Assembly: GCF_900104785.1 (NCBI RefSeq)
Contig: NZ_LT629733.1
Coordinates: forward strand, 2,769,001-2,833,000
Length of the DNA: 64,000 nucleotides
Reading direction: 5' to 3'
From: Formosa sp. Hel1_31_208
GTDB lineage: Bacteria > Bacteroidota > Bacteroidia > Flavobacteriales > Flavobacteriaceae
Shown: positions 15,141-51,719 of the stretch, in pieces
Position numbering within the stretch: position 1 is the first letter of the stretch
Layout of the letters: each line of letters begins with the position of its first letter
Translations under genes and position numbers: made by a program
The notes under the pieces: generated by a model
Told to the model about the DNA's origin: nothing
The model's database searches: none
The model's input: only the letters and a program-made list of their open reading frames with translations

Positions 15141-15174
15141 AAAAAGAGCCTTAATGGATAAGGCTCTTTTTTAT
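15141..15174. terminator. Bidirectional terminator between DUF2141 gene and TonB receptor gene
   Basis: Stem AAAAGAGCCTTA / TAAGGCTCTTTT with a 5-base loop, A-tract on one side and T-tract on the other. It can end transcripts from both converging genes. Confidence 0.85.
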
Positions 15175-17474
15175 TACCAATAGACTCTGAACATCAGATT
15201 TGGCGTTAAACCTATTGAGAATTTATCAAGCACTTCAATAGCGCTATTTAAATCGTTATTTCCTATATATTCTCTACTGATTAAATTTTTTCGATTGTAA
15301 ACATTGCGTATGGAAAACCCAACCTTAGCTCTTAATTTACTATCTCTTGAAAACCTAAACTTATAAGTTGATGAAATATCTAAACGATGATAGGTTGGTA
15401 AGCGTTGCGTATTAATACCGTCATTGAACTCTAATCCATTAACGCCATTGGTAGATTGGGTAAAGGGTTTACCTGTTTGCAAACGCCATCCTAAGGCTAC
15501 TTGAAAATTAGATAGCTTATAGCTCAATGATGATGACACGGCATGTATTACATTAGATCTTGAAGTAAAAAACTCCTCATTATTTAAGTTTTGATAGCGA
15601 CTTTCAGAATTATTAAACGAATAACTCACCCAAGTATTAAAACTGTTAAAGCGTTTTTTTAAAAACACATCAATACCAAAAATGCGTTGTTCTCCAATCT
15701 TAAACTGACTATTTTCCGGATTTAAAAACCCAAATGATAAAGCCGTAATATTATCTAAGGTCTTGTAGTAATTGTCGATATCTATGGTCCAACCGTTATT
15801 TGCATATATCAAACCTGCAGATACTTGTTTACTATTAATAATTGGAAACTCATTACCATTAGCCAAACGCCACAAACGGTTTTCTAAGGACAGATCCGAA
15901 ATGATGGTCTCATCAATTTCACTAATAATCTGATTTTTAATTTCACCAGAAACTTGAAGCTTTACATGTTTAAAAAGCGGTTTAAAAATCAACAGTCTTG
16001 GTTCAAATCTAAACGTATCTAATTCATCAAAATAAGTAGCTCGCACACCAAAAGACAAATCAAATAATTTGGGATTACTATACTCATAGTTTCCATATAC
16101 ACTGTGGGTTTGGACCACCGTTTTATCTTCGTCTAAAACAAATTCTAAATTCGTCGTGTTTAAAAATGCATAACCCACATCTTTTAGCACATATTGATAC
16201 CCAAAAGTCGCTTTATTTTGCTCATTAATCTCTTGAGTTAATTCTGTCGATATTCCTGAATCAAATATGACATTTCGTTTCTCAAAATCAGATATCTGCT
16301 GTTCATCTTCCGAAACAATATAATTATAATTAAGCTCATACTCAGAAAAATAGGCATTGGTAGATTGCGTTAATTTTGAACTCCAAACGGTATCCCATCC
16401 TAAGCCGTAACCTCTATTTAAGATCGACATTTGATCATTGAAGGTATCATTTGTTGCAGCATCAGAAACAGTATAATCTAAGTTGTTATCAATTGCAATC
16501 GCACTCGCATAGATCTTGTGTGATGAATTAGGCTGGTAATTAAGTTTGATATTATAATCGAAAAAATCAAACTCGTTATTAGGGTTGTTCCCGTTTTCTA
16601 TTTTAGTGCTTTCAAAAACCTTATCTGCCAACTGATCAAAGGTATAAGTCTGATAAAGATTGGTGTAACTAGAACGCACCGAAGCTTGAAGGCCAAGTTT
16701 GTTTTTTATGATTGGAATATTTACATAAGCATCGCCATTAATACCGTTGAATCCCATTTGCGCTCTCACCCTATTCTCAATTTTAGAAGTCGATGTCATA
16801 GAAATTACACTGGATGCTCGCTCACCATATCGCGGATGGGAACCTTTATTAATAAAACTTACTGCTTTGGTGGCATTGGGATTAAAGGGAGAGATCATTC
16901 CAAAGAGATGACCTTTATGATACATATTAATCCCATCCCAAATTAGACGGTTTTGATCCATTTTACCTCCTCGAACTAAGAATCCAGAAGCCGTTTCATT
17001 TGGACTGATAACACCTGGTAATAATTGGATACTTTCTAAGACATCAGGTTCGGTTAGACCCGGCAAAATACCCAAGCTTTGTGGTCGAATTTGATATGTT
17101 GCATCCTTTTGTTTTGATATCCCGTTTGCTAAGTAACTATTGAGTACGATCTTTTTTAATTGCTGTAAACGTATTAATTCTTTAGCGTCATTTACAATAA
17201 TATATCGTTTTGCAACCACTTCAAATTTCAGATTGATTTGATTGGATAAACTATTCAAGAGCTGCGATAAAGTGCGCTTCTCCTTAGGTAAATTAACAGT
17301 TTTGTCTTCGATAACCTGGTCTTGATAAGAAAATCGCACGTCATAAAGCGCTTCAATTTGTTCAAACGCATCTTCTACCGAATCATTATCGAAACCCATG
17401 TAAAATTTAGCCTCTTCTTGCGAAAAGGCTAAAACGGGTAAAATTAGTACAATACTAAAAATCAGTTTTCTCAC
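15174..17474 (-). CDS. TonB-dependent outer-membrane receptor with N-terminal STN signalling domain
   Basis: A 766-residue FecA-type transducer. A signal peptide ends AFS-Q; an STN domain spans roughly residues 25-97; the plug follows with LPGVISPNETASGFLVRGG and NRLIWDGINMYH; the rest is the beta-barrel ending in FRVYW, with a terminal aromatic residue. The STN domain should contact the FecR protein encoded just upstream and signal to the ECF sigma factor. There is no carboxypeptidase-like domain or SusD partner. The start overlaps the end of fecR by 4 bases. The ligand is unknown. Confidence 0.93.
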   Translation of the reverse strand: MRKLIFSIVLILPVLAFSQEEAKFYMGFDNDSVEDAFEQIEALYDVRFSYQDQVIEDKTVNLPKEKRTLSQLLNSLSNQINLKFEVVAKRYIIVNDAKELIRLQQLKKIVLNSYLANGISKQKDATYQIRPQSLGILPGLTEPDVLESIQLLPGVISPNETASGFLVRGGKMDQNRLIWDGINMYHKGHLFGMISPFNPNATKAVSFINKGSHPRYGERASSVISMTSTSKIENRVRAQMGFNGINGDAYVNIPIIKNKLGLQASVRSSYTNLYQTYTFDQLADKVFESTKIENGNNPNNEFDFFDYNIKLNYQPNSSHKIYASAIAIDNNLDYTVSDAATNDTFNDQMSILNRGYGLGWDTVWSSKLTQSTNAYFSEYELNYNYIVSEDEQQISDFEKRNVIFDSGISTELTQEINEQNKATFGYQYVLKDVGYAFLNTTNLEFVLDEDKTVVQTHSVYGNYEYSNPKLFDLSFGVRATYFDELDTFRFEPRLLIFKPLFKHVKLQVSGEIKNQIISEIDETIISDLSLENRLWRLANGNEFPIINSKQVSAGLIYANNGWTIDIDNYYKTLDNITALSFGFLNPENSQFKIGEQRIFGIDVFLKKRFNSFNTWVSYSFNNSESRYQNLNNEEFFTSRSNVIHAVSSSLSYKLSNFQVALGWRLQTGKPFTQSTNGVNGLEFNDGINTQRLPTYHRLDISSTYKFRFSRDSKLRAKVGFSIRNVYNRKNLISREYIGNNDLNSAIEVLDKFSIGLTPNLMFRVYW

Positions 17475-18397
17475 TTTGTGCTCAAATAGATGTTTCCTTT
17501 TTCTTTTTCAATATATTGTATTTGTAAAGACTTAAAGACCGTTTGTAAAGCAACGTCTTTGTCTTCATGTGTAAAACTACCCGTATAAATTAGTGTGTCA
17601 TCAACTTGCTCGGTATAGATTGAAATATCGTACTGCGATTCTAAAGCAGCAATGACATATTTCAGTGGTACACTTTTGAACGTACGCTCACCATGAATCC
17701 ATGACGGATCCGTTTCGGCAGTTTTAGATGCTTCAGCCTTAAAACCATTAATACGTCGAACGGACTGCTTAGGCATTAAAATGTAATCTTCACTAAGTGT
17801 ATTTACACTCACTTTTCCTTCAAAACAAACCACTTCAAAGTAATCGCTAACCGAATTCACATTGAACTGTGTCCCTAAAACATGTACACTTCCATTCTCA
17901 GTGTTTACTGTAAAAGTACTGCCTTTTTTTACTTTAAAATATGCTTCACCATCAAGCGTCAAAGATCGGTTTGATTCCCAATCTTCTTTATTATAGCTTA
18001 TGGTAGATTTGGAATTGATAATAACCTCAGAACCATCTAACAAGGCAATAGATTTTTGCTCACCATAATTCGTCGTGATTGTCATAACATCATCACCCAT
18101 TAAGGAAAACAATCCAAAAAGTAATATGATAGAAGCAGCAATACCAATCAACCAACTATTAGAATTCAATTGACGGACTTTCACTTTAGGCTCTGAAATA
18201 TGACGTTGAATTTTAGCAAACGATGTTGCGGTTGATGATTCTAAAGACACATGGGTATCAATACCTTTTCTTAGTTTTTGAAAGGCATCAAAATCGTCTT
18301 CAGACACTAATTGTTTTAGCTCATCATCAGTGAGCTTACCTTCCATCCACTTGGCTAGAAATGTCTCATTATCGCTATGTAAGTTTTGTTCTTTCAT
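17471..18397 (-). CDS. FecR family anti-sigma/sigma regulator
   Basis: A 308-residue transmembrane regulator with a cytoplasmic N-terminal sigma-binding part (residues 1-80), one TM segment near residues 82-99, and the periplasmic FecR domain (DGSEVIINSKSTISYN, GEAYFKVKKGSTFTVNTENG, VLGTQFNV) followed by an STN-like C-terminal part. It should transmit occupancy of the TonB receptor across the membrane. A two-part promoter-like motif at 18409-18444 sits directly before its start, 12 bases from the ATG, so fecR and the receptor are probably transcribed by the neighbouring sigma factor. Confidence 0.93.
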   Translation of the reverse strand: MKEQNLHSDNETFLAKWMEGKLTDDELKQLVSEDDFDAFQKLRKGIDTHVSLESSTATSFAKIQRHISEPKVKVRQLNSNSWLIGIAASIILLFGLFSLMGDDVMTITTNYGEQKSIALLDGSEVIINSKSTISYNKEDWESNRSLTLDGEAYFKVKKGSTFTVNTENGSVHVLGTQFNVNSVSDYFEVVCFEGKVSVNTLSEDYILMPKQSVRRINGFKAEASKTAETDPSWIHGERTFKSVPLKYVIAALESQYDISIYTEQVDDTLIYTGSFTHEDKDVALQTVFKSLQIQYIEKEKGNIYLSTK

Positions 18398-18408
18398 GAC
18401 TTATCTAT

Positions 18409-18444
18409 TACTATGACAACTACAGACTAAAAAACCCTACTTTT
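18409..18444 (-). promoter_or_regulatory. Candidate ECF-sigma promoter before fecR (copy 1)
   Basis: Reading the minus strand: AAAAGTAGGGTT (18444-18433), 12 bases, then GTTGTCATAGTA (18420-18409). The same two blocks with the same 12-base spacing occur on the plus strand at 19013-19048 before the Kazal-like lipoprotein, and nowhere else that I found in the window. Position between the sigma gene stop and the fecR start suggests a sigma-dependent promoter for fecR and the receptor. Confidence 0.7.
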
Positions 18445-18447
18445 ATT

Positions 18448-18960
18448 TTAAATATTTCCAATATCTCGCCTCATGACGATTAAAGCTTGGTGCATTCGCT
18501 TTTCCACAGCCTTTACTGAAATATCTAATTGTTGGGCAATCTCCTTATAGGTTTTCTTTTCAATTCTACTCAGTAAAAACACTTCTTTTTGTTTCGCAGG
18601 AAGCGCATTAATCGTACGCTCCAATTTTTCCATGAATTCACTTTCTATCATTATAAATTCTGGAGATTCATTGGTTTGAGAAGACGACAGAGTTGCTTGA
18701 TGTTTTCTTTTAACCGCTTGATGTTTCACCGTATTTAAAAACGAATTTGATGCCACGGTGTATAGGTAACTTTTTACTTTCTCAAATTTTACTTTACCAC
18801 AATTATCCCACAATTTAATAAATGTCTCTTGTAAGATGTCTTCGGCGGCATCAACGTCTTGAGTTTTATAGAAAACAAATCGTCTTAAATCTTTTGCATA
18901 CTTTTGGTAAAGCATTTCAAAAGTTTTAGACTGACAAATATGATGTTGCTCTTTTGACAT
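18448..18960 (-). CDS. ECF-type RNA polymerase sigma factor (FecI-like)
   Basis: A 170-residue sigma-70 family ECF factor. Region 2 is seen as LRRFVFYKTQDVDAAEDILQETFIKLWDN, and region 4 as LPAKQKEVFLLSRIEKKTYKEIAQQLDISVKAVEKRMHQAL. It lies 50 bases before fecR and forms the cytoplasmic end of the receptor-FecR-sigma relay. No copy of the AAAAGTAGGGTT motif lies in front of the sigma gene itself; a weak TAGTTTTG housekeeping -7 element is seen at 18984-18991, so sigma production may be independent of its own activity. Confidence 0.95.
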   Translation of the reverse strand: MSKEQHHICQSKTFEMLYQKYAKDLRRFVFYKTQDVDAAEDILQETFIKLWDNCGKVKFEKVKSYLYTVASNSFLNTVKHQAVKRKHQATLSSSQTNESPEFIMIESEFMEKLERTINALPAKQKEVFLLSRIEKKTYKEIAQQLDISVKAVEKRMHQALIVMRRDIGNI

Positions 18961-19012
18961 TCTGAGTTTTGATAATAACGTCTCAAAACTAAATAAAAAA
19001 AAATTAGAGAAA

Positions 19013-19048
19013 AAAAGTAGGGTTATGTTCTTGAGTGTTGTCTTAGTA
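19013..19048 (+). promoter_or_regulatory. Candidate ECF-sigma promoter before the Kazal-like lipoprotein (copy 2)
   Basis: AAAAGTAGGGTT (19013-19024), 12 bases, then GTTGTCTTAGTA (19037-19048); the second block differs from copy 1 at one base of 12, and AT-rich similarity continues for several bases. The lipoprotein ATG is 43 bases downstream. It ties this gene to the adjacent FecI/FecR system. Confidence 0.7.
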
Positions 19049-19090: not shown

Positions 19091-20416
19091 ATGATGAAAA
19101 ATTTGAAATTATTCTTTTTAAGCTTCGTATTAATAACAGGTGTCTTAACGTCTTGTACCAATGATGAGCCTGTAATTGAAGAACAAAACATTGACGAAAG
19201 TCAAGCGATAACCACCTCTTTATCTGCATTAAGCCTTCAGTTTAATAGCCAAGGTGATGTAGAGCCAACCGATAACCCATCAGGAAATATTGTTTTTGAT
19301 TTCTGTTTTGATTTTGTTTATCCCTTAAATTTATCTTACAATACAGGAACGACAGTTACGGTAAATAGTCTTGAAGATTTAATTGCTATTATTATTAACT
19401 CAAACCAAGATTTATTTATTAACGGTATTGCATTTCCTTTTGATGTAGAAACCTATAACGATGATAGTGATGCTATTGAAATCGTTACTATTAACAATGA
19501 AGACGAATTTATTGACCTCCTAGAAGATTGTGATTTTGATAATGAATTTGATTGTGAGTGCTCTGAAGAATACGATCCGGTATGTGTGGAAATTGAAGCT
19601 CCAGACGGACAATCATTTGTAGTAACCTATCCAAATGAGTGTTACGCACTTTGTGATGGTTTTACAGAAGATGACTTCACCGAAAACTGTGAAGATGACT
19701 TCAATAATACAGGTGGATACGAATGTTTTACATTTAATTTCCCATTAACTATAGTTACCGACAACAACGAAACTATTACAGTAAACTCTCAAGCTGAGTT
19801 AGATACAGCTTTATATAACTCTTATTATTTTGATTTTGTATATCCCTTCAGCGTTACTGATGATGAAGGTGAAGTTGAAACTATAGAAGATGAAATTGAC
19901 TTTATTGAGCTCCTTGAAGATTGTTATGATGATTTCGAAGATTGTGATTGTTCAGACGAGTTTAATCCGGTATGTGTGCAGGTAACTGGTCCAACTGGTA
20001 ATATTGAAATTTTTGTTTTTCCAAATGAATGTTTCGCCTTATGTGAAGGGTTTACCGGAGAAGATTTTATAGAATGTGAAGATAATAACACAGGTGATTG
20101 TACTGAAAATGACTACGTTTTAAATTTAACGCAATGTAATCACTTTGCCTATTTTTTAAATGGTAATGATCAGCAAGCATATCTAGTTGAATTCTCAGCT
20201 AATGGTACTTTAACAATCACTAATGAAGATGAATCGTTCAGTACTACTGGGATTTGGGAATTTGGAGCTACAACAGCAGATGGTTTTGCGACAATTGAAA
20301 TTGACGCAGTAGCTGATGATTTTGATGATGTTTGGGGAATAACAGGCTGTGAAGCTGAGTTCCTTTATATGTTTTCAACGTCGCAAACTTTTGTTATCGA
20401 CGTCATTTGTGAGTAA
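19091..20416 (+). CDS. Acidic lipoprotein with two Kazal-like modules
   Basis: A 441-residue lipoprotein (signal ending VLTSC). It holds a duplicated unit: a beta-rich segment with FVYP and a TVNSLEDL/TVNSQAEL block, ending in LLEDC, then a Cys-rich module CECSEEYDPVCV...YPNECYALCDG (about residues 158-203), repeated as CDCSDEFNPVCV...FPNECFALCEG (about 291-335). PVC-V and the NEC-ALC-G spacing resemble Kazal protease-inhibitor domains. A lipocalin-like C-terminal part (TLTITNEDESFSTTGIWEF) follows. Very acidic. It probably sits on the outer membrane and may serve the divergent TonB receptor; inhibitor activity is only inferred. Confidence 0.82.
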   Translation: MMKNLKLFFLSFVLITGVLTSCTNDEPVIEEQNIDESQAITTSLSALSLQFNSQGDVEPTDNPSGNIVFDFCFDFVYPLNLSYNTGTTVTVNSLEDLIAIIINSNQDLFINGIAFPFDVETYNDDSDAIEIVTINNEDEFIDLLEDCDFDNEFDCECSEEYDPVCVEIEAPDGQSFVVTYPNECYALCDGFTEDDFTENCEDDFNNTGGYECFTFNFPLTIVTDNNETITVNSQAELDTALYNSYYFDFVYPFSVTDDEGEVETIEDEIDFIELLEDCYDDFEDCDCSDEFNPVCVQVTGPTGNIEIFVFPNECFALCEGFTGEDFIECEDNNTGDCTENDYVLNLTQCNHFAYFLNGNDQQAYLVEFSANGTLTITNEDESFSTTGIWEFGATTADGFATIEIDAVADDFDDVWGITGCEAEFLYMFSTSQTFVIDVICE

Positions 20417-41561: not shown

Positions 41562-44500
41562 TTACTTCTTACCAGAAGATACGATCTTCTTAGTAACAGA
41601 ACCTTGATTAGTTGTCAACTTCACATAGAACAATTGGTTTGAGTATCTAGATAAATCGAAAGTCGATGTACCTTTAGATCCTGTAACATATCTAGTGTTA
41701 GTTTCAGTGAATACTAATAAACCTTTAGTATCAAATAACTCAATAGTTACGTTAGTTTCAAACTCAAATGAGTATGCAATATTAACTTCTTTATCAAATG
41801 GTACTGGATAAGCAGTAAAGTCTATCTCAGTTCCTGCAGTTCTAGCTTGAGGTGCACCACAAGCCACATTCACAGCGAATGTGAATCCTGATACAGAGCT
41901 ATCACTATCAAATGTAACGTATACTGAATCTCCAGTTGTTGTTACAGATTGACCTATTAAGTTTCCATCAAATGCGCCAAGGAATGGTGCCGTAGCATCA
42001 AGACCGTCATAAACAAATATGAAATCAAATCCTGCTTCAGTTGAACCATCAAAATTAATTGTTAATGGATCTCCTGTACTAGACGTAAATGCCCATTCTA
42101 GGAATTGATTGTTTTCAGTACCTATTACTTCAACAGTCTCTCCTGGTCCACCACATTCAACGATAGTTGCTCCAGTCTCACAAGATGCATTCACAGCGAA
42201 TGTGAATCCTGATACAGAGCTATCACTATCAAATGTAACGTATACTGAATCTCCAGTTGTTGTTACAGATTGACCAGTTAAGTTTCCATCAAATGCGCCA
42301 AGGAATGGTGCCGTAGCATCAAGACCGTCATATACAAATATGAAATCAAATCCTGCTTCAGTTGAACCATCAAAATTAATTGTTAATGGATCTCCTGTAC
42401 TAGACGTAAATGCCCATTCTAGGAATTGATTGTTTTCAGTACCTATTACTTCAACAGTCTCTCCTGGTCCACCACATTCAACGATAGTTGCTCCAGTCTC
42501 ACAAGATGCATTCACAGCGAATGTGAATCCTGATACAGAGCTATCACTATCAAATGTAACGTATACTGAATCTCCAGTTGTTGTTACAGATTGACCAGTT
42601 AAGTTTCCATCAAATGCGCCAAGGAATGGTGCCGTAGCATCAAGACCGTCATATACAAATATGAAATCAAATCCTGCTTCAGTTGAACCATCAAAATTAA
42701 TTGTTAATGGATCTCCTGTACTAGACGTAAATGCCCATTCTAGGAATTGATTGTTTTCAGTACTTAATACTTCAACAGTCTCTCCTGGTCCACCACATTC
42801 AACGATAGTTGCTCCAGTCTCACAAGATGCATTCACAGCGAATGTGAATCCTGATACAGAGCTATCACTATCAAATGTAACGTATACTGAATCTCCAGTT
42901 GTTGTTACAGATTGACCAGTTAAGTTTCCATCAAATGCGCCAAGGAATGGTGCCGTAGCATCAAGACCGTCATATACAAATATGAAATCAAATCCTGCTT
43001 CAGTTGAACCATCAAAATTAATTGTTAATGGATCTCCTGTACTAGACGTAAATGCCCATTCTAGGAATTGATTGTTTTCAGTACTTAATACTTCAACAGT
43101 CTCTCCTGGTCCACCACATTCAACGATAGTTGGAAGAGTTTCACAAGTTACTGATAACTCATATGCTCCAGTTTGTCCATTGAATCCAGACACAAATACC
43201 TTGTATTCTTGACCTTCAACAGTATCAAATACTATTTGAGAATGAAGATTACTATGTATACAATTAGTATCATTTGACGTATCATCATTATTAGCTACAC
43301 AAGTTACACCACAATCAGAATACACACTTAAGTACGTATCATACGTCGTGTTGGCACTACATGTACTAATAGTTGCTGTTTGACCAGTTCCTACTAATGT
43401 ATACCAATCACCTGAGTTACTTCCAATAGACGTACAGTCTTGATTATCGTATTCTGGAACTCCAGTTACAGATGTATCTCCGCTGATTACGTCACCACAA
43501 GCAATTTCTGCAGCTACTTCACAAGCGTCGAGGCATTCTACAGATAATTCAAATGCTCCTGTACCGCCAGCGAATCCAGATACAAAGATTTTGTATTCTT
43601 CACCTGCAACAGTATCAAATTCTATTTGAGAATGCAAATTGCTATGTACACAATTAGTGTCATTTACAGTATCATCATTATCAGCTACACAAGTAATTCC
43701 ACAATCAGAATAAGCACTTAAGTACGTATCATACGTTGTGTTTTCACTACATGTACTAACAACTATTGGACTTCCTGTTCCGACAACTGTATACCATTGA
43801 CCTAAACCTTCTCCAAAAGAAGTACAGTCTTGACCGTCTACTTGAGGGCCACCAGTAACAGATGTATCACCGCTTACAACAGCGCCACAATCTAATACCT
43901 CAGCATTATCACAAGTACTTAATTCAACAGACCATGTATACGTTACATCACAAGACGCAGTATTATCACAACCATCATTAGCTGTAAACGTACGTACTAA
44001 AGTGTAATCTCTAGTTGGTACTGAACCTACAGAATAGGTTAGGTTGTCTAAACATCCATAGTTATTACCGAAATCTTGAACTACAAAGTCTAAACTTGTA
44101 ATTCCAGTCTCCGTAAGCGTAACGATGTTACCTGCATCTCCATTTCCATTTACAGAAAGAACCGAAGTTCCTCCATCATGGTTTACGGTAACCTCTACAA
44201 GTGTATTATCTGCAATTGCAAATGACACATCAAATGCTGGTACAGCGAATGAAATAGTTGCACTAGGATCATTACCACCCACATCTGCTGAAGATTGAGC
44301 TGTGTTCCAAACTAATGAATTAGGAGTAGATAAGGCAGCACAATTAAATGTTGACGTATCTAATACTTCCCAGTTCCCAGCAGTTAATGATGCGTAAGGA
44401 GATGTGAAGTAATCATTAGTAGAAGTGTTTTGAACAGAGAAAAGTGAAGGAGCAAATAGCCCATCAAAATTCTCAGTATACGTCTCAGCAGCACTACCCT

Positions 44501-47500
44501 CATTAACTACAGATGTTAAATTATCTGAGAAATCCTGAGTATCACCACCTACTTGACAGTTGTCAGTATAAGGCGCCTTATCAGCAAATCCTGATGGCGT
44601 TTGAGTAACGACACCAAAGTCTTGACCTTCTGGGCACTCTACTATAGGATCAGTATCATCAACGATGATAAATGTACAATCGAATGGTAAAGATACGTTT
44701 CCACAAAGATCTTCAACTTCCATAGTTAATACTATAGTTGTAGAACAATCATCAGTTGGCGTAGCCACGTTGCTTACAACTCTGAAAATTAATTCATCCT
44801 CGTCAGCACAGTTATCAGTATAACATCCTAGGAAGGCAGTACCTTGACCTATGTCTCCTATACTCACTCCTGCTACAGTCCATGATGTATCTCCTGCAGA
44901 GACTTCATCACCTTGTTGTAATGAAATTACAGCATCTGCTGGGCAAGCTGCGCCAGCATCAGTACCAATAACTACAGCTTCAACAGGACATCCTCCAGTT
45001 GGAGCTTCTTCGTCTAATCCTTCATAGTTAATCTTAACAGGATCAGAAATAAGTCCACAAGCATCTTCAGCTGTGTAGATGAATACTTTCAACCACTGAC
45101 AGTCAGAACCGAATTCTTGAACTGTTTTAGTTATGATTAAATCATCAGTACTTGTACAGTTATCAGAGAACATTGCTCTCATATCTTCTGCACTTGGCTC
45201 ACCTAATTCAGCATCAAAACATAACGTTGTATTAGTAAATGAATCATCTAATTCACCGTTATAAACAGGCTTCATAGTATCAGCTCCACTATTTACGATA
45301 GTTACGTTATCTGCGAAGTTTCCACAAGAATCTTCAACAGTAAATGTGTAAGTCGCAGTCCATGCACAATCAGTACCTTCAATAATAGGCTCTAATGGTG
45401 ACACTAATACTTCTCCACATGTTTCAGTGTATGCTGCAGCGATTTGATTCATAACTTCTGGAGATACTCCAGGGTTATCACTTAAGCACTGTAATCCAGT
45501 AACACCTGTTGGTAATGTTCCTACTAATACAGGAGCACTATCATCACCACCGAAGTAGCTAATTTTGATGTTATTTGCGAAGTTATCGCAATCATCAGAA
45601 ATTGTGTATACATAGAATACTGCCCATTGACAATCTGAACTTTCAACTATAGTTTCTTCTTTAGTTACATTCACATTACCACAGTTATCTTCAAATAACT
45701 CTATGATTGTTGCAATAGATGGTCCTACTGGACGATCTGCGAAACAAGCATCAATAAATGACTCACCACCTGGTGCTTCACCTACTAACATTGGTGCAGT
45801 TTCATCAACAACAGTAACAACATGTTTAGCTGTTATTGTTCTATTACAATCATCAGTATATGTAAAGTTTACTTCAAACGTTCCACAGCTTCCTTCGAAA
45901 GCATCTGCTTCACCTTGAACTTCTCCTGCAATCTCACAAGCGCCAGTTCCACCATTTGAATATGATAAGAATTGTGGTTCATAAGTTGCTAAATCTTCAC
46001 AAGCGATAGTCACATCAATGATTTCTGCAAATACAGCTTCTGGAGCTGGTTCAACAGTAATCACTTTTTGTGCAGTAATAGTTCTATTACAATCATCAGT
46101 ATATGTCCAGTCTAAGAATAAAGTACCACCACACTCATCGTATGATCCACTTAATACAGCTGGTACAGAACCTGCGATTTCACAAGCGCCATTGCCACCA
46201 TTAGTGTAGTTCAAGAACGTTCCACCAACTACAAAGTCAGAAATTGTTAATACTCCTGGTCCTGCAACACCATCTTGACTAGTTACGCTAAATCCAATCA
46301 CATCTCCAGCAGCACAGTTTACAGAAACTGATCCTGATTGATTATCTGGCCCGTTAGAATCAGTTAACTCAATAACAGCTACTCCATTTACATAGAACGC
46401 TGGATCCCAGAATGCACTATCTGTTGTATTAAAATCCCAACTAAAGCTATAGTTTCCGCTTGTAGGACATGTAGCAGTAGCAATTACTGGTACATCGTTT
46501 GAACCATCAGCAGCTCCTGTTATAGTCATATCAGTTGCTGTAATAGCGATAGTTCCATCGGTTCCACCAGTATTAATTGACCAGTTTCCTGGTGCAAAAT
46601 CACCAACAAATCCTTCTACAATCGTAGCATTTATTACAACAGCAGCAGCTTCTTCACATGACACAGTCATATCCTCAACAGGATCGAATGCTGCCATAGG
46701 TGCTGGTTCAACAGTAATTGTCTTTTTCGCTGTGATTGTTCTATTACAATCGTCAGTGAATGTATAATCTACTTCTAATATACCACCACACTCATCGTAT
46801 GATCCAGTAACTTCACCAGCAACTTCACCAGAGATTTCGCAAGCTCCAGTTCCACCGTTAGTATAAGATAGACAACCTGGTCCACCAACAACTACGTTAT
46901 CTACATAGATGGTAAAGTCTGATGGCTCAGCCCAAGTGTTAGCAGCAGCATCCCAACCAGGGAATAATGCTAATAATCCATATGCCTGATCTCCAATGTT
47001 ACCATTAACAAGTTGATCTTGTTCAAACGACACAGTTATTGTTTGCCATTGTCCTACGTTAGTGTATGATCCAGCAGTTTCAGCAAAGTCATCTGGCGAA
47101 GTTTCTACTTTCACTAAGATATCAAATGCTTGATCTGCTAATACATCAATCTTTACAGATTTGGTATTAGTTAGATCAATATTATTGACTAAACTAGCAC
47201 CTTGCCATGGATTTCCTGCAGCTTGAGAAATAAGCTCTAATACTTGGTTATTACCATCCTGAGGATCGGCAGTAACAGCAGCACTAGCTAAACCTTCAAA
47301 TGCAGTTATTACACCTGGGTTTGTGAAGTCTTCAACTAAAGTTGAACTCACAAAAGCAGCAGCTTCTTCACATGAGATTGTCATGTCTTCAACTGCTTCA
47401 AATTCAGCTTGAGGTGCTGGTAAGACTGTAATTACTTTTTTAGCTGTGATTGTTCTGTTACAATCATCAGTATACGTCCAGTCTACTTCTAAAGTACCAC

Positions 47501-50500
47501 CACACTCATCGTATGATCCACTTAATTCACCTTCAACAGATCCTGAGATCTCACAAGTACCAGTTCCACCATTTGTATATGATAAAGAACCTGGTTCGAA
47601 TACATTAGCGTCTTCACATGTAATTTCCATGTCAATAACGTCTTCGAATTCAGCTTGAGGTGCAGGTAAGACAGTAATCACTTTCTTAGCTGTGATTGTT
47701 CTGTTACAATCATCTGTAAACGTATAGTCTACTTCTAATGTACCACCACACTCATCGTAAGTACCACTTAATTCACCTGGTACAGATCCTGAGATCTCAC
47801 AAGCGCCAGTTCCACCATTTGTATATGATAATGGCATCATACTTCCAACTGCAAAGTTTGAAATAGTTAATGTTCCAGCACCGGCAATACCGTCTTGTGA
47901 ATTTACGCTAAATCCAATCACATCTCCAGCAGCACAGTTTACAGAAACTGATCCTGATTGCGCTGATAAGCCATCATCAGTTAACTGAATCACAGCCACT
48001 CCATTTACATAGAATGCTGGATCCCAGAATGCAGAACTATCATCAGTAGTAAAGTCCCAACTGAAACTATACACTCCACTAGTAGGGCAAGTTGCTGAAG
48101 CAATTACATTGCTACCTACACCATTATTACCTCCAACAATAGTCATGTCAGTTGCAGTAATGTTTATAGATCCATCAGAACCACCTAAATCTTGTATCCA
48201 ATTTTCAGGAGCAAAATCACCTGCAAATCCTGTAGAGAAGTCGTCAACAAAAGCAGCAGCTTCTTCACATGAAATCGTCATGTCAATAACGTCTTCGAAT
48301 GCAGCAGCTGGTGCTGGTAATACAGTAACTGTATTACTTGCCGTAATTGTTCTATTACAGTCGTCAGTATACGTCCAGTTTACAAGAATTACACCTCCAC
48401 ACTCATCATAATCTGGTGTAGCTTCTCCTGTTACAGATCCAGAGATCTCACAAGCGCCAGTTCCACCATTTGAATATGTTAATGATCCTGCTTGGAAAGT
48501 ATTAGCTTCTTCACATGTAATCTCAAATCCATCTACTTGTTCAAATTCAGCCATTGGTGCTGGTTCAACAGTAACTTCTTTTTGAGCTGTAATTGTTCTC
48601 TCACAAGCATCAGTATATGTCCAGTTTACAAAAAGAGTACCACCACATTCGTCGTAAGTACCGCTTAATTCACCTGGTACAGATCCTGAGATCTCACAAG
48701 CTCCAGTTCCACCATTTGTGTAAGCTAAATCTTGTGCTTCATAAAGTGCAGCATCCTCACATGTAATAGAAAGGTTTTGAACTTCTGTAAATTCAGCAGC
48801 TGGTGCTGGTAAAACAGTAATCACTTTCTTAGCAGTGATTGTTCTATCACATTTATCAGTAAATGTCCAGTCAACTTCTAAAGTACCGCCACATTCAGTA
48901 TATGATCCACTTAATTCACCTACTACAGATCCTGAGATCTCGCAAGCTCCAGTTCCACCATTTGTATATGATAAAGAACCTGGTTCGAATACATTAGCGT
49001 CTTCACATGAAATCTCCATGTCAAAAACGTCTTCGAATACAGCAGCTGGTGCTGGATTTACTTTAACTTGTTGGTGAGCAGTAATTGTTCTCTCACAATC
49101 GTCAGTATATGTCCAATCGATAAATAATACGCCTCCACACTCATCGTATGTTCCGCTTAATTCACCTAGTACAGATCCTGAAATTTCACAAGCTCCAGTT
49201 CCACCATTTGTATATGATAATGAACCTGCTTGGAAAGAATTTGCTTCTTCACATGTAATAGTAATATTTTCAACAGCTTCAAATTGTGCTTGAGGTGCTG
49301 GTAAAACAGTAATTGTTTTCTTAGCTGTGATTGTTCTCTGACAAGCATCAGTGTAAGTCCAATCTACAAATAATTCACCACCACATTCGTCGTATGATCC
49401 ACTTAATTCACCTGGTACAGATCCTGAAATCTCACAAGCGCCAGTTCCACCATTAGTATATGATAATGAACTTGGTTCGAAAGAATTTGCTTCTTCACAT
49501 GAAATTTCCATGTCTTGAATTGCATCGAATTCAGCAGCTGGTGCAGCTAAAACAGTAATTGTTTTCTTAGCTGTGATTGTTCTCTGACAATCATCAGTGT
49601 AAGTCCAATCTACATATAATGTTCCTCCACATTCAGTGTATGATCCACTTAATTCACCTACTACAGATCCTGAGATCTCACATGCTCCAGTTCCACCATT
49701 AGAGTATCCTAATGATCCTGGTTCGAAAGAATTTGCTTCTTCACATGAAATTTCCATGTCTTGAATCGCATCGAATTCAGCAGCTGGTGCTGGTAAAACA
49801 GTAATAGTTTTCTTAGCTGTGATTGTTCTCTGACAATCATCAGTATAAGTCCAGTCTACTTCTAAAGTACCACCACACTCATCGTATGATCCACTTAATT
49901 CACCTGTTACAGATCCTGAAATCTCACATGCTCCAGATCCACCATTAGAATATCCTAATGATCCTGGCTCTAAAGAATTTGCTTCTTCACATGTAATTTC
50001 CATATCTTGAATCTCATCGAATTCAGCAGCTGGTGCTGGCTCAACATTAACTTCTTTTTGAGCTGTAATTGTTCTATTACAGTCATCAGTAAATGTCCAG
50101 TTTACAAAAAGAGTACCACCACATTCGTCGTAAGTACCACTTAATTCACCTGCTACAGATCCTGAGATCTCACAAGCTCCAGTTCCACCATTTGTATAAG
50201 CTAAATCTTGTGCTTCATAAAGCGCAGCAGCCTCACAAGTAATAGAAAGGTTTTGAACTTCTGTAAATGAAGCCATTGGTGCTGGTAAAACAGTCACTAC
50301 TTTCTTAGCAGTAATTGTTCTTTCACACTCATCTGTAAATGTATAGTCTACTTCAAGAGTACCACCACATTCTGTGTAAGATCCACTTAAAACACCTTCT
50401 ACAGATCCTTTGATATCACAAGCGCCCGCTCCACCATTACTATAAGATAGGAATCCTGGTTCAAATACATTAGCCTCTTCACATGTAATTTCCATGTCTT

Positions 50501-51719
50501 GAACTGGGTCAAATACGGCTGGAGGTGTTGGTAAAACTGTAATCGTTTGTATTTGAGACGTTGTACGTCCACAATCATCTGTTACAGAATACGTTCTTAA
50601 AATTGTTCCACCAAAGCATGTTCCATCAAATTGACTTTCATCATCAGTTACTACAACATCTACTTTATCAGTACAATTATCTGCACCTGAAACATTTTTT
50701 GTATCAGGAGCTGGAATAAGATCAGCACAAGTTACTTCAACATCTTCTGGTACTCCCGTTAATGTTGGATTTTCAAAATCTCCACCATAATAAGTAAGTA
50801 CTAAGTTTTCTGGTACAAAGTTTCCACAATCATCAGAAATTGTATACGTGTATTCTGCCATCCATTTACAGTCATCTCCTTTAGAAACTCCTGTTTTAAC
50901 AACATTTACGTTACCACAGTTATCTACAAACAATGCCGCAATATCTTCTTCAGTAGGTCCTTGTTCTTTTTCTAAAAAACATTGGTTTAAAGAATCAGTT
51001 ACTAGTGGCGGAAGCTCAACATCTTTTCCTAACATAGGAGCTTCTGTATCTCCTCCACTGTAGGTAACATCTAAATCATCTGCGAAATTTCCACAGTCAT
51101 CAGATATTGTGTATTTGTAAGTAACTGTCCAAGAACAGTCGCTACCTTCTGGAGATCCAGATTTAGTAACATTTACTTCACCACAGTTATCTGAGTACAA
51201 TGCAGTAATATCTGCAATACTTGGTCCTTCAGGAATATCGTCATAGCATAAAACTAATAGACTACCACCGGTTGGTACCTCAGCATCACCATTAAGTTCT
51301 GGTGCTGTACCATCAGCTCCGAAGTATTCAATTTTGAATTGCTCTTCGAACGCTCCACACTTAACATCGTAAGTGATTTCTTTGGTCCAGCCACAATCAT
51401 TGCCCTCTTCAGTGACAGTAATTGTTACTTCTGGTGTAACTCCGGCACATTCTTCTTGGCCTGAGTACAAATTTTGCACTTCCGCGACAGTAAATCCATC
51501 AGGTGCGTCACTTAGACAGCCACTAATTTCCGTACTTCTCGCGAAGCTTTGTTGTGCGAACAACGAACTTGTACTAAACGTCAAAAGCATGAGTAAGACT
51601 AACGTCTTCATGCTTCTACTTTGTTTAGTCATAAGATCAATGCTACAACACGATAAATTCGTGATAGATTGCCAGATTTTGGCGCGTCTACCACTTCGAG
51701 TAAAATTGCTCATAAACAT
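41562..51719 (-). CDS. Giant repetitive T9SS-secreted surface protein (3385 aa)
   Basis: A putative adhesin or matrix protein. In order: a 36-residue N-terminal extension, signal peptide core MKTLVLLMLLTFS ending FAQ (37-56); three Cys-rich modules (DNCG-VNV, SDDCGNF) and one HYR-like module; fourteen 82-residue repeats (about 403-1973; core TNGGTGACEISGSV, DECGGTL, RTITAKK) with domains nested in three; three more Cys-rich modules and an HYR-like module with another nested domain; two prepeptidase-C-terminal-like domains (about 2605-2860); four near-identical CUB-like domains (about 2864-3291); and a type A T9SS sorting tail (AYPVPFDKEVNI...VTKKIVSSGKK). Earlier in-frame starts at 51632 or 51611 are possible alternatives. 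Function is inferred from architecture. Confidence 0.93.
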   Translation of the reverse strand: MFMSNFTRSGRRAKIWQSITNLSCCSIDLMTKQSRSMKTLVLLMLLTFSTSSLFAQQSFARSTEISGCLSDAPDGFTVAEVQNLYSGQEECAGVTPEVTITVTEEGNDCGWTKEITYDVKCGAFEEQFKIEYFGADGTAPELNGDAEVPTGGSLLVLCYDDIPEGPSIADITALYSDNCGEVNVTKSGSPEGSDCSWTVTYKYTISDDCGNFADDLDVTYSGGDTEAPMLGKDVELPPLVTDSLNQCFLEKEQGPTEEDIAALFVDNCGNVNVVKTGVSKGDDCKWMAEYTYTISDDCGNFVPENLVLTYYGGDFENPTLTGVPEDVEVTCADLIPAPDTKNVSGADNCTDKVDVVVTDDESQFDGTCFGGTILRTYSVTDDCGRTTSQIQTITVLPTPPAVFDPVQDMEITCEEANVFEPGFLSYSNGGAGACDIKGSVEGVLSGSYTECGGTLEVDYTFTDECERTITAKKVVTVLPAPMASFTEVQNLSITCEAAALYEAQDLAYTNGGTGACEISGSVAGELSGTYDECGGTLFVNWTFTDDCNRTITAQKEVNVEPAPAAEFDEIQDMEITCEEANSLEPGSLGYSNGGSGACEISGSVTGELSGSYDECGGTLEVDWTYTDDCQRTITAKKTITVLPAPAAEFDAIQDMEISCEEANSFEPGSLGYSNGGTGACEISGSVVGELSGSYTECGGTLYVDWTYTDDCQRTITAKKTITVLAAPAAEFDAIQDMEISCEEANSFEPSSLSYTNGGTGACEISGSVPGELSGSYDECGGELFVDWTYTDACQRTITAKKTITVLPAPQAQFEAVENITITCEEANSFQAGSLSYTNGGTGACEISGSVLGELSGTYDECGGVLFIDWTYTDDCERTITAHQQVKVNPAPAAVFEDVFDMEISCEDANVFEPGSLSYTNGGTGACEISGSVVGELSGSYTECGGTLEVDWTFTDKCDRTITAKKVITVLPAPAAEFTEVQNLSITCEDAALYEAQDLAYTNGGTGACEISGSVPGELSGTYDECGGTLFVNWTYTDACERTITAQKEVTVEPAPMAEFEQVDGFEITCEEANTFQAGSLTYSNGGTGACEISGSVTGEATPDYDECGGVILVNWTYTDDCNRTITASNTVTVLPAPAAAFEDVIDMTISCEEAAAFVDDFSTGFAGDFAPENWIQDLGGSDGSINITATDMTIVGGNNGVGSNVIASATCPTSGVYSFSWDFTTDDSSAFWDPAFYVNGVAVIQLTDDGLSAQSGSVSVNCAAGDVIGFSVNSQDGIAGAGTLTISNFAVGSMMPLSYTNGGTGACEISGSVPGELSGTYDECGGTLEVDYTFTDDCNRTITAKKVITVLPAPQAEFEDVIDMEITCEDANVFEPGSLSYTNGGTGTCEISGSVEGELSGSYDECGGTLEVDWTYTDDCNRTITAKKVITVLPAPQAEFEAVEDMTISCEEAAAFVSSTLVEDFTNPGVITAFEGLASAAVTADPQDGNNQVLELISQAAGNPWQGASLVNNIDLTNTKSVKIDVLADQAFDILVKVETSPDDFAETAGSYTNVGQWQTITVSFEQDQLVNGNIGDQAYGLLALFPGWDAAANTWAEPSDFTIYVDNVVVGGPGCLSYTNGGTGACEISGEVAGEVTGSYDECGGILEVDYTFTDDCNRTITAKKTITVEPAPMAAFDPVEDMTVSCEEAAAVVINATIVEGFVGDFAPGNWSINTGGTDGTIAITATDMTITGAADGSNDVPVIATATCPTSGNYSFSWDFNTTDSAFWDPAFYVNGVAVIELTDSNGPDNQSGSVSVNCAAGDVIGFSVTSQDGVAGPGVLTISDFVVGGTFLNYTNGGNGACEIAGSVPAVLSGSYDECGGTLFLDWTYTDDCNRTITAQKVITVEPAPEAVFAEIIDVTIACEDLATYEPQFLSYSNGGTGACEIAGEVQGEADAFEGSCGTFEVNFTYTDDCNRTITAKHVVTVVDETAPMLVGEAPGGESFIDACFADRPVGPSIATIIELFEDNCGNVNVTKEETIVESSDCQWAVFYVYTISDDCDNFANNIKISYFGGDDSAPVLVGTLPTGVTGLQCLSDNPGVSPEVMNQIAAAYTETCGEVLVSPLEPIIEGTDCAWTATYTFTVEDSCGNFADNVTIVNSGADTMKPVYNGELDDSFTNTTLCFDAELGEPSAEDMRAMFSDNCTSTDDLIITKTVQEFGSDCQWLKVFIYTAEDACGLISDPVKINYEGLDEEAPTGGCPVEAVVIGTDAGAACPADAVISLQQGDEVSAGDTSWTVAGVSIGDIGQGTAFLGCYTDNCADEDELIFRVVSNVATPTDDCSTTIVLTMEVEDLCGNVSLPFDCTFIIVDDTDPIVECPEGQDFGVVTQTPSGFADKAPYTDNCQVGGDTQDFSDNLTSVVNEGSAAETYTENFDGLFAPSLFSVQNTSTNDYFTSPYASLTAGNWEVLDTSTFNCAALSTPNSLVWNTAQSSADVGGNDPSATISFAVPAFDVSFAIADNTLVEVTVNHDGGTSVLSVNGNGDAGNIVTLTETGITSLDFVVQDFGNNYGCLDNLTYSVGSVPTRDYTLVRTFTANDGCDNTASCDVTYTWSVELSTCDNAEVLDCGAVVSGDTSVTGGPQVDGQDCTSFGEGLGQWYTVVGTGSPIVVSTCSENTTYDTYLSAYSDCGITCVADNDDTVNDTNCVHSNLHSQIEFDTVAGEEYKIFVSGFAGGTGAFELSVECLDACEVAAEIACGDVISGDTSVTGVPEYDNQDCTSIGSNSGDWYTLVGTGQTATISTCSANTTYDTYLSVYSDCGVTCVANNDDTSNDTNCIHSNLHSQIVFDTVEGQEYKVFVSGFNGQTGAYELSVTCETLPTIVECGGPGETVEVLSTENNQFLEWAFTSSTGDPLTINFDGSTEAGFDFIFVYDGLDATAPFLGAFDGNLTGQSVTTTGDSVYVTFDSDSSVSGFTFAVNASCETGATIVECGGPGETVEVLSTENNQFLEWAFTSSTGDPLTINFDGSTEAGFDFIFVYDGLDATAPFLGAFDGNLTGQSVTTTGDSVYVTFDSDSSVSGFTFAVNASCETGATIVECGGPGETVEVIGTENNQFLEWAFTSSTGDPLTINFDGSTEAGFDFIFVYDGLDATAPFLGAFDGNLTGQSVTTTGDSVYVTFDSDSSVSGFTFAVNASCETGATIVECGGPGETVEVIGTENNQFLEWAFTSSTGDPLTINFDGSTEAGFDFIFVYDGLDATAPFLGAFDGNLIGQSVTTTGDSVYVTFDSDSSVSGFTFAVNVACGAPQARTAGTEIDFTAYPVPFDKEVNIAYSFEFETNVTIELFDTKGLLVFTETNTRYVTGSKGTSTFDLSRYSNQLFYVKLTTNQGSVTKKIVSSGKK
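41848..43131 (-). repeat. Four tandem 321-bp CUB-like repeats
   Basis: Four copies with a period of exactly 321 bp (107 codons), for example TCACAGCGAATGTGAATCC at 41870, 42191, 42512 and 42833. Copies differ at only a handful of bases: Ile vs Thr before GQSV in the last copy, and VEVLST (first two in protein order) versus VEVIGT (last two). Each encodes a CUB-like beta-sandwich (IVECGGPGETVEV, DFIFVYDGLDA, VYVTFDSDSSVSGF). Confidence 0.93.
43140..43915 (-). repeat. Two prepeptidase-C-terminal-like domain repeats in the adhesin
   Basis: Two related units of about 125 residues, each with CGxVxSGDTSVTG, WYT-VGTG, NTTYDTYLS-YSDCG-TCVA, HSNLHSQI-FDTV and a FVSGF closing strand. Sequence identity is high in protein but lower in DNA. 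Such beta-sandwich domains are common in secreted proteins. Confidence 0.75.
44030..44490 (-). other. Domain nested in an HYR-like module of the adhesin (insert D)
   Basis: Between NLTSVVNEGSAAETY and VPTRDYTLVRTFTANDGCDN, two parts of one Ig/HYR-like module, lies about 150 residues of a jelly-roll-like domain (TENFDGLFAPSLFSV, NSLVWNT, CLDNLTYSVG), i.e. a domain within a domain. Confidence 0.55.
46214..46638 (-). other. Nested domain in repeat unit 13 (insert C)
   Basis: About 140 residues inserted between SCEEAAAVV and LNYTNGGNG; closely related to insert A (GFVGDFAPGNW, SGNYSFSWDFN, DPAFYVNGVAVIEL, NCAAGDVIGFSV). Looks like a jelly-roll ligand-binding module. Confidence 0.65.
46874..47350 (-). 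other. Nested domain in repeat unit 12 (insert B)
   Basis: About 155 residues inserted between SCEEAAAFV and CLSYTNGGTG: VEDFTNPGVITAFEGL, DLTNTKSVKIDVLADQ, GQWQTITVSFEQ and DFTIYVDNVVVGG, the pattern of a carbohydrate-binding-module-like jelly roll. Unrelated in sequence to inserts A and C but at the same site. Confidence 0.65.
47832..48252 (-). other. Nested domain in repeat unit 10 (insert A)
   Basis: About 140 residues inserted between SCEEAAAFV and LSYTNGGTG: DFSTGFAGDFAPENW, SGVYSFSWDFT, DPAFYVNGVAVIQL and NCAAGDVIGFSVNSQDG. Paralogous to insert C. Confidence 0.65.

Follow-up and report, generated by a model that had tools for sequence, protein, structure and literature searches.

In the ferric citrate system FecI-FecR-FecA, the receptor gene is a target of the sigma factor, and in Escherichia coli fecI and fecR lie on one transcript. 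The sigma factors of Bacteroides polysaccharide utilisation loci belong to TIGR02985. The proteobacterial ferric citrate system combines an ECF sigma factor of the FecI kind with FecR and a TonB-dependent receptor bearing an N-terminal signalling domain, as set out in PMC9249621. Polysaccharide utilisation loci of Bacteroides join an ECF sigma factor, a FecR-like anti-sigma factor and a TonB-type transporter (PMC3878776 and PMC11501099); at one of them, PUL24, a 5′ end was mapped inside the anti-sigma gene (PMC11501099). Within the flavobacteria themselves, ECF-type promoters with a conserved –10 box are described for Flavobacterium psychrophilum SM6; that strain combines a CGT box with several type IX secretion genes, and which of seven ECF factors is the reader was left open (PMC9723704). 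The prediction of ECF promoters is regarded as challenging and as needing mapped transcription starts (PMC3878776). A TGTT box has been reported for ECF-type promoters of Bacteroides, the authors' own motif test being not significant (PMC12596196).

We analyzed a stretch of 64,000 nucleotides from Formosa sp. Hel1_31_208 (contig NZ_LT629733.1, positions 2,769,001 to 2,833,000; hereafter the window), in which an earlier note had described an ECF sigma gene between two copies of a two-part motif. The features concerned are the following.

15174..17474, minus strand: TonB-dependent receptor (PF00593, 4.2e-12), with an N-terminal signalling-type domain at residues 28-93 (PF16344, 5.9e-9)
17471..18397, minus strand: FecR family anti-sigma factor/regulator (PF04773, 1.7e-19; PF16344, 5.1e-6)
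18409..18444, minus strand: predicted ECF-type promoter (D site) preceding fecR-receptor, with GTAGGGT at 18434-18440 and GTTGTCATA at 18412-18420; kept in 20 of 20 orthologous loci
18448..18960, minus strand: FecI-like ECF sigma factor, TIGR02985 (Sig70_bacteroi1; 138.8 bits, cut-off 126.4), with Sigma70_r2 and r4_2
18984..18991, minus strand: predicted housekeeping (sigma-A type) –7 box TAGTTTTG, likely promoter for the sigma gene, with TAnnTTTG in constant position
19013..19048, plus strand: predicted ECF-type promoter (U site) preceding the lipoprotein, with GTAGGGT at 19017-19023 and GTTGTCTTA at 19037-19045; kept in 20 of 20 orthologous loci
19091..20416, plus strand: surface lipoprotein of 441 aa, with a lipobox ending in TSC, repeated beta-rich modules, Kazal-like Cys-rich modules and a C-terminal beta domain

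The gene calls for sigma factor, FecR, receptor and lipoprotein all held; the Plug domain of the receptor (PF07715) scored 23.5 bits, just below its cut-off of 23.9. As in FecI-FecR-FecA, a FecR-domain regulator (PF04773, 1.7e-19) adjoins the sigma gene and the TonB-dependent receptor has an N-terminal signalling domain. With regard to transcription of the receptor by the sigma factor, a promoter is predicted ahead of fecR-receptor. In contrast to that system, fecR here has its own predicted ECF promoter, apart from the sigma gene, and a divergent surface lipoprotein gene has a second copy of it. Unlike the polysaccharide utilisation loci of Bacteroides, the locus was not seen to adjoin a SusD homologue or a glycan-active enzyme: no SusD or enzyme family was matched by the lipoprotein or by the gene past the receptor, and inspection of the remaining ORFs between 12000 and 25000 by eye revealed neither. 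Moreover, in a phylum-wide sample twin promoters were not seen other than at the window's locus. Unlike in SM6, adjacency and twin sites here point to one sigma factor. A literature search, which cannot prove absence, returned no description of the twin-promoter layout. Elsewhere in the window (41562-51719, minus strand) we observed a 3385-aa secreted repeat protein with a type IX-like C-terminal stretch, a label given by eye; its 321-bp repeat at 41867-43132 comprises 3.9 copies with 99% matches.

The motif AAAAGTAGGGTT-N12-GTTGTCWTAGTA, reported in the earlier note ahead of fecR and of the lipoprotein gene, was present exactly at 18409-18444 (minus strand) and 19013-19048 (plus strand), each site spanning 36 bases. 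The note had seen no further copy in the window, and we found none with up to three mismatches (0.00 expected from 100 shuffles). The whole-genome search that it had proposed likewise returned the pair and no further copy in the 3,098,671 bases of the one-contig genome at up to three mismatches (reversed-pattern control, 0), and a 32-base version of the motif gave the same two sites only at this tolerance. When a 16-base core was searched with two mismatches allowed, the genome yielded five matches and the reversed pattern four, so that the extra matches number about what chance would give; one, at 1493321, adjoins a paralogous sigma gene. A larger regulon in the organism's own genome was not found in these searches. 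The conserved cores within the 36-base motif are GTAGGGT and GTTGTCTTA. We read the twin sites as ECF promoters that the neighboring sigma factor probably recognizes, as part of a surface-signalling module of FecI, FecR and receptor together with which a surface lipoprotein would be induced, and we put the probability of this reading at roughly 0.88.

The lipoprotein was found in 20 of the 57 genomes searched, comprising our own, 18 of the 22 others of the genus and one of 11 from other genera of the family; none of 23 genomes from other families of the order had it. Precisely these 20 genomes also carried a sigma orthologue (at least 65% identity); outside them the best match reached 53%, and four genomes of the genus (G003, G006, G014, G021) were without both the lipoprotein and the sigma orthologue. 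Comparison of the same gaps in these relatives, also proposed in the earlier note, revealed both sites in all 20 lipoprotein-bearing loci (own included), with 0-2 core substitutions per site. The blocks GTAGGGT and GTTGTC carried 1.4-2.0 bits per base, the mid-spacer 0-0.9, and the interval from AGGGT to TGTC was 15 bases in 20 of 20 loci. The U site began 54-57 nt from the sigma start, and 12-14 nt separated the end of the –10 box of the D site from the fecR ATG in all 20 loci (in our own genome, the site ends 14 nt ahead of the fecR start), indicating that the fecR message would be nearly leaderless. Judging from these alignments, the twin sites are evidently not a product of chance.

The paralogous sigma systems offered a second line of comparison. 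Searching with the sigma factor returned 92 matches (E 1e-25 or better), spread over 30 of the 57 genomes; all 92 were used and grouped by average linkage at about 58% identity. Of these systems, a generic scan detected 87 with a site upstream and 81 with one on the fecR side (reverse-strand and shuffled controls, 3 of 92 each), counts that are in-sample because the threshold of 12.5 had been set on the genus sites already viewed. The consensus read GTAGGGT..GTTGTCTTA for the window's group, AAATAGGGT..ATGTCTTA for group 1, TTGGGACA..AGTTGTTTTA for group 2, TCAGGAG..AGTTGTTATATA for group 3 and GGTAGGA..TGTTATAT for group 4. Single-linkage clustering merged 83 of the 92 sigma factors and left 273 cross pairs, a weak null, and a within-genome test was used instead, on 86 systems in 26 genomes with at least two systems each. 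The fecR-side site of a system was the best partner of its own upstream site in 64 of the 86 systems (25.7 expected; 26 of 86 in the reversed control). This held for 20 of 20 systems of the window's sigma group; the own partner was not the best in 22 of the 86, including the second system of our own genome. That genome has three FecR systems, with both sites visible in each and with distinguishable motifs. The motif of the third system differs from the others and has two perfect sites in the genome and no more, other matches showing two to three mismatches at control level. Certain residues of the sigma factor followed the motif, for example position 149 (region 4), with V or I in 58 of 62 proteins with AGGGT and K in 12 of 12 with GGGAC; these associations are confounded by ancestry.

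These variants bear on two other explanations. Sequence conservation alone cannot separate a promoter from an operator, and the sites could be operators for some different DNA-binding regulator, either an activator or a repressor. We consider this improbable, since the two blocks are held at a constant distance in all 20 loci, the –10-like TGTC/TGTT box resembles flavobacterial and Bacteroides ECF-type promoter boxes (PMC9723704 and PMC12596196), and motif variants follow the adjacent sigma paralogue. Alternatively, the sites may be ECF promoters whose reader is a different ECF sigma factor or more than one, the neighbor not being the sole reader. Partly overlapping ECF regulons have been suggested in F. 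psychrophilum (PMC9723704), and the divergent site of our second system scores 27.3 against the fecR site of the first system and 22.8 against its own partner. The joint presence and absence of sigma orthologue and sites, however, as well as the distinguishable motifs of three sigma systems within one genome, argue against shared readers, and we hold this alternative to be unlikely, if less so than an operator.

The second FecR system of the genome lies outside the window. In the stretch G000:C1:1493320-1493442 (L137, about 2121-2243), no protein gene was found behind its divergent promoter before ffh, and an intrinsic terminator ends about 93 nt past the –10 box of that promoter. The stretch occurred in 21 of 26 loci of its sigma group (own included), and the 16 short examples aligned at a mean identity of 78%, the terminator stem hardly varying. 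Nothing in Rfam matched it at E 1 or better; its core was present once in the genome. The stretch is likely a small RNA under ECF control, a candidate proposed from its sequence. In G027, the same gap contains the gene of a 701-aa lipoprotein.

A scan of named genomes with the alignment of the lipoprotein provided 75 loci, of which 18 duplicated earlier contigs and were removed, leaving 57 new loci. The sigma gene was divergent in 33 and collinear in six; three (L243, L244, L245) had a weaker same-strand sigma match and 15 no sigma match in the DNA at hand. With the threshold of 12.5 applied unchanged, both sites were detected in 33 of 33 divergent loci (opposite-strand controls, 1 and 0 of 33), among which L216 has its fecR-side match in doubtful register and a few, such as L174 and L197, are further Psychroserpens relatives. 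The strict motif, with up to two mismatches, fitted on both sides in 27 of these loci and did not do so in six. Paired changes were seen as well: L217 and L218 carry CTGTTTTA on both sides, and L209, counted strict all the same, has TGTA on both sides. The earlier assignment of the sites to the sigma factor at 18448-18960 is thus supported by comparative evidence (co-occurrence, paralogue-specific motifs and the 33 new loci); it combines proximity with co-variation and is partly confounded by shared ancestry.

In the six collinear loci (five Flavobacterium, one Flavobacteriaceae bacterium), lipoprotein, sigma, fecR and receptor genes follow each other on one strand. GTAGGGT..GTTGTC preceded the lipoprotein gene in five of them (L234 by the scan; L224, L229, L230 and L241 by eye, with TGTCTAA), and L226 had no site there; in the short sigma-fecR gap of these loci no site was seen. 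Among the 15 loci without a sigma match, seven detached lipoprotein genes were read and five had the site (L210, L220, L231 and L236 by the scan, L235 by eye), L227 and L228 being without it. The scan found no site ahead of the lipoprotein in L243 and L244, which have the weaker same-strand sigma match. Since it is kept in most of the collinear and detached loci read, the site tracks the lipoprotein gene and not the flanks of the sigma gene, which speaks for the earlier proposal that the lipoprotein would belong to the same regulon. In the collinear order the sigma gene would be self-activated, and in the window's order it would not.

The same loci weigh on the idea that the pair is no set of promoters, and instead an inverted repeat flanking the sigma gene, formed by the ends of a mobile element or by a recombination or inversion site. 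The two copies do point away from each other on either side of one gene, and genera differ in whether the sigma gene is divergent or collinear. However, conservation is limited to two short blocks around a variable mid-spacer, the 12-14 nt spacing to the fecR ATG is held in 20 of 20 loci, the site also precedes other lipoprotein and secreted-protein genes elsewhere, and it is kept ahead of most lipoprotein genes read that are collinear or without a sigma gene in the DNA at hand. We rejected this idea, which the detached and collinear loci largely refute, and give it next to no chance. Promoters for the adjacent sigma factor stay our preferred reading.

The earlier note had also seen no motif copy ahead of the sigma gene and had inferred that this gene is driven separately, and indeed no copy was found upstream of it. 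The housekeeping box of flavobacteria has the consensus TAnnTTTG (PMC9723704). All 20 orthologues have this box 29-32 nt ahead of the sigma start codon, where about 6% would be expected from mononucleotide shuffles, and within 110 nt of the sigma start in 31 of the 33 new divergent loci, at –15 to –38. It was rarer ahead of paralogous sigma genes (2 of 14, 1 of 17 and 1 of 26). Because the box is common in the window (97 matches vs 91 expected), the evidence lies in its fixed place. A TTTG at –33 of the sigma promoter was not seen; the T run at this position overlaps the ECF –35 block of the divergent promoter. The missing motif copy and the housekeeping-type box in 20 of 20 orthologues support a separate, predicted promoter for the sigma gene.

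Across 199 genomes of the family, the exact core GTAGGGT-N13-GTTGTCTTA occurred at 23 places in 13 genomes (reversed control, 0). Five of these places belong to our own genome, G005 and G027. Judged by the ORFs around them, eight of the other 18 stand ahead of lipoprotein genes, two more form a tandem with such a site on its upstream side, two lie in the sigma-fecR gap, five precede secreted-protein genes and one is ambiguous (L283). In L291, L296, L298, L289, L297, L286 and L294, from other Flavobacteriaceae, the exact core precedes several lipoprotein or small secreted-protein genes, some sites being in close tandem and a related sigma gene adjoining in some. These recurrences in other Flavobacteriaceae would make up a more extensive regulon of this type. 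Two relatives, L072 (2967-2995, minus strand) and L073 (4920-4948, minus strand), carry the site in a GTTGTT variant ahead of a 455-aa lipoprotein gene, and the ORFs of the retrieved DNA included no sigma gene. In the phylum-wide sample of 30 loci, among the matches listed, twin sites were present at the window's locus only and at 0 of the 29 others, L256 and L258 having the fecR-side site alone. The layout is therefore a family-level feature, and its generality across the phylum was not supported.

The lipobox cysteine C22 of the lipoprotein was invariant across 19 aligned orthologues (L017, with unresolved residues, was omitted from the 20), and the Cys-rich, Kazal-looking modules differed in number between them. 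The earlier note had called the protein Kazal-like. Kazal_2 was matched in 4 of the 19 aligned relatives (best 2.4e-4) and some homologues carry Kazal-like database names, but the window's protein itself had no Pfam match, and the Kazal label is a weak one. Searched against the PDB, its structure model (mean pLDDT 67) found no fold match at E 0.001 or better and its sequence none at E 1 or better. When profiles were compared, it appeared related to the lipoproteins of our third system (97.6%) and of the G027 second system (98.7%), figures possibly inflated by acidic composition. Because the lipoprotein would be co-induced with the receptor, a natural guess is that it serves as a putative surface partner of the receptor or as a surface-protecting protease inhibitor.

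On the preferred reading, the two sites would act as –35/–10 promoters for RNA polymerase with the ECF sigma factor encoded between them, and the housekeeping-type box would serve the sigma gene. The same-strand promoter, 14 nt ahead of fecR, would drive fecR and the receptor, and the divergent promoter the lipoprotein. The receptor would sense a surface ligand and signal through its N-terminal domain to FecR; FecR would then free the sigma factor, which would induce fecR, the receptor and the surface lipoprotein and not itself. The outcome would be negative feedback through FecR without self-amplification. As the ECF –35 element of the lipoprotein promoter sits where the –33 region of the sigma promoter belongs, ECF polymerase at this promoter may in addition occlude transcription of the sigma gene.

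We propose, with confidence somewhat above even, an arrangement shared by a large group of Flavobacteriaceae, in which each FecI-like sigma gene would lie between two copies of the promoter that its product recognizes. One copy would serve the anti-sigma factor and the receptor, the other a divergent gene for a surface lipoprotein or, in one of the paralogous systems, for a conserved small RNA. Matching the flanks within a single genome could then reveal the promoter specificity of each paralogue, and in the window's group the sigma gene would stand outside its own regulon, on a housekeeping promoter overlapping the divergent ECF promoter. Many Bacteroidota have numerous ECF sigma factors with largely unknown targets, and flank matching gives a testable promoter for each paralogue from sequence alone. 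The approach also suggests that a family of surface lipoproteins, so far unstudied, belongs to such regulons. In this wiring, the anti-sigma factor and the receptor, but not the sigma factor, would be induced.
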